Assembly (NCBI GenBank): GCA_002869405.1
Contig: PKSY01000241.1
Location: forward strand, 1 to 36,734
Reading direction: 5' to 3'
Length of the DNA: 36,734 nucleotides
DNA from: Marinilabiliales bacterium
GTDB lineage: Bacteria; Bacteroidota; Bacteroidia; Bacteroidales; BM520
Shown here: piece after piece, positions 29,101 through 36,734 of the stretch
How positions within the stretch are numbered: position 1 is the stretch's first letter
Layout of the letters: each line of letters begins with the position of its first letter
Notes under the pieces: generated by a model
Seen by the model: only the letters and a program-made list of their open reading frames with translations
Databases searched by the model: none
What the model was told of the DNA's origin: nothing
Position numbers and translations under genes: made by a program

Positions 29101-30165
29101 ATGCAATTTAATTCGCCAAAAAATCTGGCCTTGTTCAACGCAGCTGTAATCACAGCCGTTGTAATTGTATTGCTTGTAGTTTATAATCTCATTTTTGCGA
29201 ATATCACACCCCTTGCAATTGTGGGTTTATCACTCCTGATTTTTCTTGTAGCCTATTTTCTCATCGGTACCACACTGGAGAATTTCTTTTACAAGAAGAT
29301 TAAACTGATATATAAAACCATTCACAGCCTCAAACGTCCGAAGGGTCATAAAACCTCAACTATTGACGTGAATCAGGATAATGTGCTTGACAGAGTTAAT
29401 ACTGAGGTGAGAGAATGGGCTGAAAGCCAGAGACAGAAAATCCAGGATCTTGAACAGAGCGCAAGTTACCGACGTGAGTTTCTGGGGAATGTGTCGCATG
29501 AGCTAAAAACACCCATCTTTAATATGCAGGGCTATGTGCTGACATTACTCGACGGCGGCCTTGAAGACCCGACCATTAACAGGAAATACCTGCTGAAAAC
29601 TGAGCAGAGCATCAACCGTATGATTGCGATTGTCAATGACCTGGAGGCAATAACAAAGTTGGAAAGCGGTGAACTGCAACCTAAAATGGAATCCTTTGAT
29701 ATTCTCAATCTTACCAGGGAGGTGATTGAATTCCTTGAGGTGAAAGCTCGACAGTGCAAAAATATTATATCCATAAAGGGACATCCTGATCGTACAATCA
29801 TGGTATATGCCGACCGTGAAAAAATCCGTCAGGTGCTCACCAACCTTATCGACAACGGCATAAAATACAGCAAGCGTGAAAATGGACGTACAACAGTAAA
29901 CTTCTTCGACATGGAGGAGAACATTCTTGTGGAAGTGAGTGACGACGGAATAGGAATCCCGGAGGAGGCCATTCCAAGGCTATTCGAACGATTTTACCGT
30001 ACTGACAAGGCGCGATCACGCGAACAGGGTGGTACAGGCCTGGGACTGGCCATTGTAAAGCATATAATCCACTCACACGATCAAACGATTAACGTGCGCA
30101 GTAAGCAAGGTATTGGAACTACTTTTGGATTCACACTTGAAAAAGCAAAGGCCGCAAAAATCTAA
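29101..30165 (+). CDS. Membrane sensor histidine kinase (PhoR-like)
   Basis: A 354-aa kinase with two N-terminal membrane spans (~12-33 and 38-58) and almost no periplasmic loop. The signal is therefore sensed in the membrane or through a partner. The H box FLGNVSHELKTPIFNMQGYV has H133. Then come the N box LTNLIDNGIKYS, G1 VSDDGIGIPEEAIPRLFERF and G2 GGTGLGLAIVKHII. No PAS or HAMP domain is evident; a ~50-residue linker joins the spans to the dimerisation helix. The stop overlaps the stop of the convergent YwqK-repeat gene by a few bases. Confidence 0.95.
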   Translation: MQFNSPKNLALFNAAVITAVVIVLLVVYNLIFANITPLAIVGLSLLIFLVAYFLIGTTLENFFYKKIKLIYKTIHSLKRPKGHKTSTIDVNQDNVLDRVNTEVREWAESQRQKIQDLEQSASYRREFLGNVSHELKTPIFNMQGYVLTLLDGGLEDPTINRKYLLKTEQSINRMIAIVNDLEAITKLESGELQPKMESFDILNLTREVIEFLEVKARQCKNIISIKGHPDRTIMVYADREKIRQVLTNLIDNGIKYSKRENGRTTVNFFDMEENILVEVSDDGIGIPEEAIPRLFERFYRTDKARSREQGGTGLGLAIVKHIIHSHDQTINVRSKQGIGTTFGFTLEKAKAAKI

Positions 30166-31460
30166 TCTGTACTATTGCTGATCATACGGTCGTCTTTGTA
30201 CACCACTTTGCGCATCAGCTTCCCTGTCTCATCATAGAATTTCCAGGTTCCCTGTTTCATGCCATTGGTGTATTTGCCTTCTGCACTGAGGGTGTTATTC
30301 ATATGGAATGTTTTCCAGGGTCCGTCGGGTTGGTTATTTATAAAATACTGCTCACGGATTCTAACACCGGCTTCATCATAGAAAGTCCATTTTCCTTCCT
30401 TGGCATCGCTTTTATAATCCCCTTCCCTGATACATATTCCGTGGGGAGACCATTCTACCCAGTGACCGTCGCGCATACCGTTTTTAAAGTATCCCTGGTA
30501 TTTCATCTGACCGTTTTCATACCAGTACTGCGACATCCCGTCGCGCAGATTTCCGGCATAGTTATTTCTGTATTTCAACACGCCATCGGGATACCAGCCC
30601 TCCCATTGTCCGTGCATCTCACCATTTCGGAAATAGCCCTGATAACTCACATTGCCGTCGGCATACCACTGTATCCAGAGCCCGTCTTCCTTATCATTGA
30701 CAAAAGATCCTTTATGGTGCACCTGCCCGTTCTCATACCAGACAATCCATTCTCCTTCCCGCAAATCATTTTCAAAACTCCCCTTCTTCCAGTCCTCGCC
30801 AGTTTCATAATAAAACGACCATTCGCCATTGCGCATACCATCAATAAAAACCCCTTCACTACCCAATTTCCCATTGGGATAATAAAATTTCCACATTCCC
30901 TGCTGGAGGTCTTTGACTACCTCTCCTTCCATTTCCAAAGAGCCGTTCCCTCGATACCATTTGCAATATCCCGAAAGGCTGTCGTTCACAAACTCACCTT
31001 CAAAAGATAAGACACCACTTTCAAACCAGCTTTTTGCTTTTCCCTGCTTCAGTCCCTGCTGATAGTTCACAGAATCTTTTTTAATACCATTGGGATGGAA
31101 CAGCGTCCATATTCCGGATTTTTCACCGTTCACTACCGGACCTGTAGATTTGATGTTTCCAGCTGCAAACCAAACAGTGTCCCTTCCATCACCATAAGTC
31201 TGAGTTTTCCATTTCATTCCAAAGCTATACCAATAGCGCCATTTACCAATAGGTTCACCATTCAGCATTTCACCTTTGGATTCCAGGGCACCGCTTGGGT
31301 ACCAGGTTTTCCACAGTCCGGTTTTTACAGAATCAGATGTCATGGTGCCTTCAGCTTTAAGAACCGTATCACCGGGGAAATACTCTTTAAAAGAAATTTG
31401 AGAAAATCCCTGTACAGAGCAAAGCATGAAAATTATGATGGTCAGAAAAACGTATCGCAT
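30162..31460 (-). CDS. Secreted YwqK/MORN-like repeat protein
   Basis: A 432-aa exported protein with signal peptide YVFLTIIIFMLCSVQGFSQ. It is built almost entirely of ~23-residue units of the form GxWxxWYxNGxxxxxGxFxNGxx. I count 15 recognisable units plus one shortened unit near residue 105. The pattern is that of the MORN_2/YwqK repeats often labelled 'toxin-antitoxin YwqK family antitoxin'. That label comes from Bacillus YwqK and says little here, because this protein is exported and has no toxin neighbour. The repeats likely form an extended beta-sheet surface for binding. The minus-strand -7 box at 31489-31482 is its likely promoter. Confidence 0.88.
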   Translation of the reverse strand: MRYVFLTIIIFMLCSVQGFSQISFKEYFPGDTVLKAEGTMTSDSVKTGLWKTWYPSGALESKGEMLNGEPIGKWRYWYSFGMKWKTQTYGDGRDTVWFAAGNIKSTGPVVNGEKSGIWTLFHPNGIKKDSVNYQQGLKQGKAKSWFESGVLSFEGEFVNDSLSGYCKWYRGNGSLEMEGEVVKDLQQGMWKFYYPNGKLGSEGVFIDGMRNGEWSFYYETGEDWKKGSFENDLREGEWIVWYENGQVHHKGSFVNDKEDGLWIQWYADGNVSYQGYFRNGEMHGQWEGWYPDGVLKYRNNYAGNLRDGMSQYWYENGQMKYQGYFKNGMRDGHWVEWSPHGICIREGDYKSDAKEGKWTFYDEAGVRIREQYFINNQPDGPWKTFHMNNTLSAEGKYTNGMKQGTWKFYDETGKLMRKVVYKDDRMISNSTD

Positions 31461-31536: not shown

Positions 31537-31544
31537 TATCTTTG
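31537..31544 (+). promoter_or_regulatory. -7 box almost touching the start of the 25-aa-repeat gene
   Basis: TATCTTTG fits TAnnTTTG and ends 5 nt before the ATG at 31550. If used, transcription would begin at or just after the start codon, implying a leaderless or near-leaderless mRNA. Confidence 0.45.
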
Positions 31545-31549
31545 CAAAG

Positions 31550-31948
31550 ATGGAAGAATATCCTGTAAAAGTATTGCTTGCCTTTGGAGAAACGTTTAAA
31601 GGCAACCCGGAATTGCATCGCTGGCTAATGGAGAACGGTTATCCGGAGCTTGGGTTATTGTCGAGTTGCATACGTGGCGATATGCGCGCATTCGACTGGC
31701 TTATGAAAAACGGGTATCCGGAGTTTGCGGCACTGGACAGCGCCATAGATAACAAGGTGGGCGCATATTTATGGTTACGCAATAATGATTTCTACATACT
31801 GGCAGCTTTCGCGGATGCCTGCAACCGCAAAATGGAAGCTGCGGCCTGGCTCAAGGAGCAGGGTCTGGAGATTTTTATTCACTTAGCGGATTGCATCAAT
31901 CATTTTCGTGACAACCAGTACTTTGACCATCATAAAAAGCAGTTTTAG
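31550..31948 (+). CDS. Small protein of 25-residue Trp-anchored repeats
   Basis: A 132-aa soluble protein, family not recognised. Tryptophans fall at residues 25, 50, 75 and 100, each followed by Leu, marking four consecutive 25-residue units (for example FDWLMKNGYPEFAALDSAI, then DNKVGA). Each unit reads W-L-x-x-N/Q-G/D-x-x-x-x-x-L/A-x-x-A/C-I/A, which suggests two short helices as in ankyrin-like solenoids, but the period is shorter than the usual 33. A half-unit precedes the first. The tail is HHKKQF. Such arrays bind proteins; no partner is evident. Non-coding repeats lie just downstream. Confidence 0.75.
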   Translation: MEEYPVKVLLAFGETFKGNPELHRWLMENGYPELGLLSSCIRGDMRAFDWLMKNGYPEFAALDSAIDNKVGAYLWLRNNDFYILAAFADACNRKMEAAAWLKEQGLEIFIHLADCINHFRDNQYFDHHKKQF

Positions 31949-32071: not shown

Positions 32072-32104
32072 AGACCTGTCAGGTTTTGAAAACCTGACAG
32101 GTCT
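32072..32104. repeat. Perfect 33-bp palindrome
   Basis: AGACCTGTCAGGTTTT (32072-32087), one central G, then AAAACCTGACAGGTCT (32089-32104): two 16-bp arms with no mismatch. It lies between the 25-aa-repeat gene and the nrdJ stop. No T-run follows on either strand, so it is not a standard terminator. I recall similar palindromes as dispersed repeats in Bacteroidota, but this is unverified. Confidence 0.85.
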
Positions 32105-35273: not shown

Positions 35274-36734
35274 TCAGAAGTCTAAACCAAGGCCAAAGTA
35301 CCATTTGGCGGGCTGTACCTCCCAGTCGTGCACGCCCCAGCTCAGGTCGAGGCGCATAAAATATCCGAGAAGCCGTGAGCGAATGCCGATGCCGTATCCT
35401 GCCACGACAGGTTCTTTTTGCACATCAACCACAACCCTGATCGTACCATTTTCGTGAATCTCACGATAAAGTGCATTTTCATCAGAGTAGGGTCCGGGAC
35501 CGGTCCAGGCAGTACCCACATCACCAAACCCCACCAGCTGGAAATTATTTAAAAACTCGGCATTCAACGGACGGTTAAAGAGGTATTGGAACACCGGCCA
35601 CCGGATTTCCGAGTTAAAAAGCATAAAGGAGTTTCCATTACGGATATTCTGATCAAAGCCGTGCATATTTGTCGCCAAAGTCTGGTAGGCATAGTTCATG
35701 TCATAGTCAATAGGTGTATTACTGTCGAAACGTGCTCCAATCCAATTGTCAACACCTCCCATGTAATAAATCAGCCTGTCGGTACCGAGTGAAGAGGATG
35801 CAGAAAATCTGTTTGCCCAGATCAGAGTACGGTGAATACGGTCGTATCTGCGGTAATCCATCCCCACCACATAGAGGTTATGAAAATCTTTATCCACAAG
35901 CTGGAAATATTCGCCAAAAACTTTAAAACGCGTTCCAACAGGGATGTTATCACTAAGGTTATAACTGTTATCAAACACCAGCTCAGTTTTTAATCCGGCC
36001 CAGTTACGGTTTAAATCCTGCTGAGAGAGGTTAAAAGGATCTGTTGCCAGATATACGGTCTTGTCATTTCTCAGTATTCCGGTAGCTGCCACATAGAGAA
36101 CCCGGTTAAGCGGATACGACAGCTTATAAAGCAGCTCATTATTCCTGATGGTTGCGTAATAGGTAGACTGGTAAATATCGTCAGCCTTACGGTGAAGAAT
36201 CAATTCCTTGTCAACACGTCCCGAGAGGTCGGAATAGTTGATAATATACTCGTTATTGGTAAGATCTGAGCCCAGTTTTACACCACCGATTATTCGATAA
36301 TCTTCCAGGAGATCAGTAACGCCGACCTGAGTAAAAACATTAAACCCTGCATTGAGGTAAATGGGAGCCCCGCCACCTGTAAACTGCTGATATGAGTAGT
36401 TCAGCGAATTGAAGTCTATCTGAGTTACCAGCTCATTGATGGAAAACTCCACATAATAATTACGTTTCTTACCGGGGTTAAAGTAATCAACCGGCTCGTC
36501 AATATACGGAGTTAAAGTATCATTTCCCGAGCGGAATGCACTAAGATCCTGCAGTGAATCTCCGGCAGGAATATCTTCCCTGCGGTCGTATAATGGTAAT
36601 CCCGGAGAGAGGTCGGGTTCATACACAGAGACAAAACGCTTTCTGCTGCGCGAAGTGGGTTTCTGCTCATCACTAATTGAAATATCAGTACGCATCAGCT
36701 CATCCATATACCCTGTTCTGGTGATATCATCCTG
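35274..36734 (-). CDS. Omp85-type barrel domain of a large outer-membrane protein, 5' part beyond window
   Basis: The frame stays open to the last base, so the start is outside; 486 codons are visible. Residues up to ~130 are a hydrophilic linker (RKRFVSVYEPDLSPGLPLYD, DEPVDYFNPGKKRNYYVEFS). Then a long barrel begins (FNSLNYSYQQFTGGGAPIYL). Strands and turns such as YMGGVDNWIGARF, FMLFNSEIRWPVFQYLFNRP, LVGFGDVGTAWTG and GYGIGIRSRLLGYFMRLDLS match the surface-antigen/BamA-like C terminus, and the protein ends YFGLGLDF with a terminal Phe. Similar Bacteroidota proteins carry an N-terminal TolB/PD40 propeller; that part is not visible here. Confidence 0.85.
   Translation of the reverse strand, partial: QDDITRTGYMDELMRTDISISDEQKPTSRSRKRFVSVYEPDLSPGLPLYDRREDIPAGDSLQDLSAFRSGNDTLTPYIDEPVDYFNPGKKRNYYVEFSINELVTQIDFNSLNYSYQQFTGGGAPIYLNAGFNVFTQVGVTDLLEDYRIIGGVKLGSDLTNNEYIINYSDLSGRVDKELILHRKADDIYQSTYYATIRNNELLYKLSYPLNRVLYVAATGILRNDKTVYLATDPFNLSQQDLNRNWAGLKTELVFDNSYNLSDNIPVGTRFKVFGEYFQLVDKDFHNLYVVGMDYRRYDRIHRTLIWANRFSASSSLGTDRLIYYMGGVDNWIGARFDSNTPIDYDMNYAYQTLATNMHGFDQNIRNGNSFMLFNSEIRWPVFQYLFNRPLNAEFLNNFQLVGFGDVGTAWTGPGPYSDENALYREIHENGTIRVVVDVQKEPVVAGYGIGIRSRLLGYFMRLDLSWGVHDWEVQPAKWYFGLGLDF

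Follow-up and report, generated by a model that had tools for sequence, protein, structure and literature searches.

Four tryptophans at residues 25, 50, 75, and 100, and nowhere else, in a protein of 132 residues raise the question of whether such even spacing marks a genuine repeat and, if so, how old the repeat is, to which kind of solenoid it belongs, and what it might do. The protein (P0001) is encoded from an ATG at positions 31550 to 31948, on the forward strand, of a 36,734-nucleotide stretch of DNA from a Marinilabiliales bacterium; we call this whole stretch the window. Self-comparison of the protein peaks at a lag of 25 residues (0.97 BLOSUM62 units per residue, 29 identities), followed by lags of 50 and 75; none of 5,000 composition shuffles equals the lag-25 score at any lag from 5 to 79 (maximum 0.42), and none of a separate 5,000 shuffles has 29 identities (maximum 19). 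Four tryptophans placed at random among 132 residues would form an arithmetic progression with a step of at least 10 with a chance of 1.5e-4. The exact register that an earlier reading of the sequence alone (the original prediction) had described is thus confirmed. The accompanying claim of four 25-residue units sharing one pattern holds in part: each tryptophan is followed by L-x-x-N (W25, W50, and W75) or L-x-x-Q (W100), but the blocks are unequally alike, units 2 and 3 having 12 of 25 residues in common, whereas block 1 and the final 32 residues consist of diverged caps and the tail.

The original prediction had offered two explanations of this register, recent duplication of a 75-bp unit or strong structural constraint. 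Of five 75-bp blocks of the gene, the second and third share 63% DNA identity and the nine other pairs 25 to 45%, and Tandem Repeats Finder (minimum score 30) reported no repeat at the locus, which argues for an old repeat kept in register and against recent duplication. Relatives with as little as 27% protein identity retain the 25-residue spacing, and comparison with one relative (L025) gives a pN of 0.11 and a pS of 0.84, the latter saturated; the gene is under purifying selection. We find it hardly credible that the pattern is a recent, selectively unimportant 75-bp duplication or the reading frame spurious: the similarity of units 2 and 3 would suit such an origin, but the low identity of the remaining pairs, the same architecture in relatives at about 30% protein identity, and the disparity between pN and pS contradict it, and we reject it as refuted by conservation. 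The exact 25-residue repeat is real and old.

We further find that the regularly placed tryptophans are the hallmark of a genuine family of bacterial proteins. The window's own genome (3.49 Mb in 348 contigs) has one copy of the gene; a second match there (L002, E 0.19) is due to chance and lies in a 671-residue frame that we take to encode a peptidyl-prolyl isomerase. Counting this genome, the family is represented in 23 of the 60 near genomes; across the order it has a single match in each of 118 genomes out of 393, and in a phylum-wide sample it occurs in 3 of 395. A peptide-pattern scan of a collection of 84,980 species, which requires short exact peptides and therefore misses distant relatives, returned 29 loci; 28 of these are real, all with Bacteroidota names and spanning Bacteroidales to Crocinitomicaceae, Cryomorpha, and bins labelled Chitinophaga, and the remaining one (L053) is a chance match. 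The distribution within the Bacteroidota is patchy. Neither tblastn against phages nor a pattern scan of viral contigs found the protein, and the single plasmid match by tblastn, to a Hymenobacter protein (P0002, E 0.9), is without the repeat and not credible.

The family alignment comprises 45 sequences including the query, from 51 extracted proteins of which seven were left out: the query's own copy (L001), a duplicate (L003), a truncated row (L021), and four near-duplicates (L014, L034, L042, and L052). Exact 25-residue spacing is found in 45 of the 45 sequences between positions W25 and W50, in 43 between W50 and W75, and again in all 45 between W75 and W100. The leucines at 26, 51, and 76 are invariant, and tryptophan itself is kept in 35 sequences at position 25, in 44 each at 50 and 75, and in 38 at 100. 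Four W/F/Y-L pairs at exact 25-residue steps occur in 60 of 70 distinct family-matching frames, the others having three pairs (seven frames), two (two frames), or one (the unrelated plasmid protein), and a search for a second family domain in 75 family-matching frames found none. The repeat number, whose variation among homologues the original prediction had proposed to check, is fixed among the frames examined.

Structure prediction, proposed from the outset as a check, yields a solenoid for the protein and not some other fold. AlphaFold2, run on the 45-row alignment, predicts with high confidence a compact alpha-alpha solenoid of 25-residue units (mean pLDDT 93.9, pTM 0.86) with nine helices, no strands, and helices of about 10 and 9 residues in each unit, joined by turns of 3 residues. 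In the model, residues 1 to 25 (positions 31550 to 31624; this and all following segments are on the forward strand) form the N-terminal cap and first unit up to W25, with helix 6-17 and the start of helix 20-28. The blocks that run to W50 (residues 26 to 50, positions 31625 to 31699), W75 (residues 51 to 75, positions 31700 to 31774), and W100 (residues 76 to 100, positions 31775 to 31849) contain helices 32-41, 57-66, and 82-91, respectively, each followed by the start of a second helix (45-53, 70-78, and 95-103), and residues 101 to 121 (positions 31850 to 31912) comprise the end of helix 95-103 and a C-terminal capping helix, 107-121. The model is confident to about residue 120, with low confidence in the tail beyond.

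A second model, of the relative L049 from 14 mostly flavobacterial sequences, has a pLDDT of 86.6 and a pTM of 0.77, with helix starts at 46, 71, 96, and 121 and at 58, 83, 108, and 133, again a period of 25; its last helix is drawn to residue 159, where confidence drops to about 69 and then to 46. The two models are not wholly independent, since all of the 14 sequences but L052 are also in the first alignment. Both have two helices per unit with short turns between them, and DSSP assigns neither any strand, the connections between helices being 2 to 3 residues long. With the near-invariant spacing in the 45 aligned sequences, the regular predicted solenoid of period 25 supports strong structural constraint, the second of the two explanations offered for the register.

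The original prediction could not name the solenoid, and our searches of Pfam, NCBIfam, PHROGs, PADLOC, and the PDB agree in giving no confident known family. The 132-residue protein has no match above cut-off in Pfam or NCBIfam. Pfam DUF434 is matched by 22 of the 45 members (best E 1.6e-5) and NCBIfam TQXA by 24 (best E 1.4e-5), and we set both aside, the protein's own matches to them being below cut-off and covering just 16 and 13 residues; matches of the 45 members in PHROGs (best E 5.3e-4) and PADLOC (best E 5.5e-4) are short or at chance level. Sequence searches of the PDB, including one with the family profile, gave nothing believable, the best match (E 0.0019) being to a designed protein over four weak stretches. 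Foldseek found no PDB match at E <= 0.001 for either model (best E 1.1, and 0.72 for the L049 model), and the best VIA-align results (Z 5.4, rmsd 5.5 over 117 residues for the first model; Z 4.6, rmsd 6.7 over 103 residues for that of L049) are low for helical models, though this is no proof of a new fold. In the open-licence papers that we searched, we recognised none as describing this family or a hairpin-less ankyrin of 25 residues.

Could the protein simply be canonical ankyrin, TPR, HEAT, Sel1, or another known type of helical repeat that the libraries have missed? Such repeats are common and degenerate, and 9 of the 45 members match the ankyrin family Ank_4 weakly (best E 7.5e-4), with 3 of 45 matching Ank_2. 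However, the period is 25 residues and not at least 30, both models are without strands, the protein falls below every Pfam and NCBIfam cut-off, and even the best E-values among the 45 members are those of DUF434 and TQXA. TPR and HEAT repeats (PF13424 and PF13646) are likewise solenoids of helix pairs, but their units are longer and their profiles score 10.6 and 8.9 against the family, at or below the mean of shuffled ankyrin profiles (10.6). We consider ordinary membership very improbable, contradicted as it is by the period and the predicted structure.

The comparison with ankyrin is closer. Using profiles built from neighbouring genomes (29 of 30 fetched ankyrin segments, L085 being dropped for stops; 23 of 30 for TPR; 10 of 10 for HEAT), hhalign aligns the family with ankyrin at a score of 27.0 (hhalign probability 43.8), whereas none of 150 column-shuffled ankyrin profiles exceeds 16.8 (mean 10.6) and the reversed profile scores 11.2. 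At a single junction the alignment matches helix B, the helix A that follows, and the helix B after that, and eight ankyrin residues are absent from the family in it, seven directly past helix B and one between helices A and B; the seven-column gap falls at the long ankyrin loop and hairpin that lead from helix B into the following helix A. The signal is concentrated toward the N terminus, with scores of 26.5 for residues 1 to 57, 19.2 for residues 32 to 82, and 11 to 14, the level of shuffles, for windows from residue 45 onward. Besides the profile similarity, which exceeds that of shuffled and other-repeat controls, the units resemble ankyrin (Ank_2, PF12796; Ank_4, PF13637) in having two consecutive short helices, with conserved leucines in the second helix followed by an x-G turn. 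Giant-virus ankyrin or F-box proteins are the seven best Foldseek matches in a viral library (BFVD), with E-values of at least 0.16 and TM of about 0.3, and are suggestive only.

In a search with a single 25-residue unit, another of the checks first proposed, the 25-column model at E up to 10 matches six ankyrin-locus frames (best E 0.028) and two TPR-locus frames, and nothing from HEAT loci, which were fewer. The full family model, at the same threshold, matches five ankyrin-locus frames, one TPR-locus frame, and one HEAT-locus frame. The link to ankyrin is weak in absolute terms. Pfam ankyrin families do not match the 132-residue protein itself, a typed consensus reaches 22.0 bits with a cut-off of 22.7, and a typed idealised repeat passes the cut-off with a score inflated by its repetition. 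No ankyrin appears among the matches that the family profile gave in the PDB sequence search; ankyrins are also absent from the VIA-align lists, which proves nothing, as these only re-align Foldseek's picks. In ankyrins, helix A opens with the TPLH motif, forms of which are named TPLX and T/SPLH; the corresponding columns read GLLS in the 132-residue protein and AALS in the family consensus.

Strictly defined, the protein falls outside the ankyrins, differing in period and in the hairpin: its units have 25 residues, compared with the 30 to 34 given for the ankyrin repeat in a passage of PMC4307672, and its models contain no hairpin or strands. As a control, 12 of 78 ankyrin-locus frames longer than 150 residues have a positive self-comparison peak, in 11 of them at 33 to 34. 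The original statement that the period is too short for ankyrin therefore stands for the period, but ankyrin is nonetheless the most similar of the three profiles compared (ankyrin, TPR, and HEAT). On balance we lean slightly toward distant descent from ankyrin, in which the hairpin, and about eight residues in all, would have been lost (33 - 8 = 25).

The units may instead belong to a short alpha-alpha solenoid that evolved independently, in which case the ankyrin score would reflect shared helix-turn-helix constraints only. We regard this as a substantial but less probable alternative. A possible analogue is DUF4116 (PF13475), for which an alpha-solenoid model is reported in an excerpt of PMC8078820, and which may be another repeat of period 25: in one DUF4116 protein from a member of the phylum (L147), lag 25 gives the best self-comparison, weakly (-0.29 per residue, the next being -0.34). 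The lack of PDB fold matches at E <= 0.001 also fits independent evolution. Against it, the ankyrin score clearly exceeds those of shuffled, reversed, TPR, and HEAT profiles, and direct comparison with DUF4116, made with one sequence only, shows no detectable similarity (hhalign probability 0.1). Pfam DUF4116 does not match the 132-residue protein and is absent among 25 of the 54 families matched by the 45 members; it occurs in 2 of 395 genomes of the phylum and in 0 of 21 relatives, where its controls were silent too, so that its absence from them is not proven.

Returning to the reading that we prefer, and hold to be probable as a whole, this single-copy protein would be a hairpin-less, ankyrin-type solenoid that acts as a protein-binding scaffold, with a contact motif in its tail and, in relatives, a radical-SAM protein as candidate partner. 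This small Bacteroidota protein is predicted, with strong support, to stack about four and a half units, each a helix pair of exactly 25 residues with a W-L pair in its second helix and N-G-Y/F, or variants of it, as the turn to the next unit; the spacing would be fixed because these W-L and turn positions are conserved. Each unit would correspond to the ankyrin-type helix-turn-helix less some eight residues, mostly those of the hairpin segment. By analogy with other helical solenoids, a surface of fixed length could bind one partner, and a role in protein binding seems reasonably likely.

Such regular units of 25 residues are close to the shortest possible two-helix repeat. If they derive from ankyrin by hairpin loss, they would be a natural proof that such units can stack without a hairpin, and would give protein designers a very small scaffold.

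The C-terminal tail could supply a second, short contact motif. Residues 125 to 132 (F-D-H-H-K-K-Q-F, positions 31922 to 31945, forward strand) are conserved and modelled with low confidence, and a C terminus that is conserved but unstructured, as this one may be, is usually a short binding motif. The commonest form in the family is FDYHKxHF-like, with D126 conserved in 39, H128 in 37, and K129 in 29 of the 45 sequences, and at 56 of 69 distinct loci the final 16 residues contain [DN]x[HY][KRST], with and without a radical-SAM neighbor.

Gene order provides the best candidate for a partner, in relatives only. The repeat gene stands alone in the window, flanked by an opposite-strand gene for a MORN_2-repeat protein and by a ribonucleotide reductase gene convergent with it, but the nearest upstream frame is a same-strand radical-SAM gene at 18 of 69 distinct family loci. 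Other neighbors, all named from examples as is the radical-SAM gene, are a ribonucleotide reductase gene downstream on the other strand (15 of 69), a "Gate" nucleoside-recognition gene upstream (8 of 69, mostly flavobacterial), and Sua5/YrdC downstream (4 of 69). A C-x3-C-x2-C motif is present in the radical-SAM protein, and in the one example scanned the general Radical_SAM family is its sole Pfam match; two examples scanned reached no NCBIfam cut-off, and a PDB sequence search found no relative. It presumably resembles COG0731, for which a literature search together with radical SAM found no paper.

At E <= 1e-50, 288 of the 393 genomes sampled from the order carry the radical-SAM gene, as do 91 of the 118 family-positive ones, leaving 27 without it, among them all six that represent the window's family. 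An obligate pair is therefore rejected: presence is hardly enriched, and together with the lack of the gene in these six genomes this points to conserved gene order. Among the 150 best-scoring places, 59 of 69 family-positive genomes have the radical-SAM gene on the same strand no more than 600 nt upstream, a share probably too high for the other 22 radical-SAM positives, since the profile was made from eight proteins all adjoining family genes and the ranking by that profile favors linked cases. The distance in the 59 linked genomes has a median of 35 nt and is at most 60 nt in 38; in the other ten genomes the gene is on a different contig (seven) or 1.9 to 3.1 kb away (three). We treat a functional link between the two proteins, in relatives, as tentative and somewhat doubtful. 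A stronger version, in which the repeat protein is the dedicated partner or substrate of the enzyme, the solenoid docking it and the Tyr/His/Lys-rich tail being modified or presented, while lineages without the enzyme gene, such as the window's, kept the protein with another or an unlinked enzyme, seems to us improbable. What was an unannotated gene, present in 118 of the 393 sampled genomes of the order, becomes a defined family with a testable neighbor, the radical-SAM gene, and a testable tail motif.

Several smaller observations concern the surroundings of the gene. An TATCTTTG box at positions 31537 to 31544 (forward strand) starts 13 nt before the ATG, leaving a gap of 5 nt, and presumably fits the Bacteroidota -7 promoter element TAnnTTTG; in two other searched genomes of the genus the corresponding distances from box start to ATG are 14 and 15 nt (gaps of 6 and 7 nt). 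In eight aligned radical-SAM proteins (L032:5207-5980, forward strand, and relatives), FGP..SRR.G.SLG.NL.P...K.C.F.C.YCECG is invariant. Sua5/YrdC, which acts in t6A synthesis, lies near the family gene in 8 of 29 stretches (the window included among the 29), mostly flavobacterial loci, in varied arrangements (L039, L043, L044, L045, L046, L048, L049, and L051; checked with Pfam in L039 and L048). Proteins similar to the MORN_2-repeat neighbor (432 residues, positions 30162 to 31460, reverse strand) are encoded near family genes in L025 and L032, and a 477-residue frame at positions 35274 to 36707 (reverse strand), with no Pfam match at 1e-5, clusters with frames from both L025 and L026. The stretch that separates the repeat-protein gene from the convergent reductase gene contains a perfect palindrome, ACCTGTCAGGTTTTGAAAACCTGACAGGT (positions 32074 to 32102), which occurs with at most two mismatches at 10 places in the genome (0 for the reversed-pattern control) and is a dispersed palindromic element or terminator.
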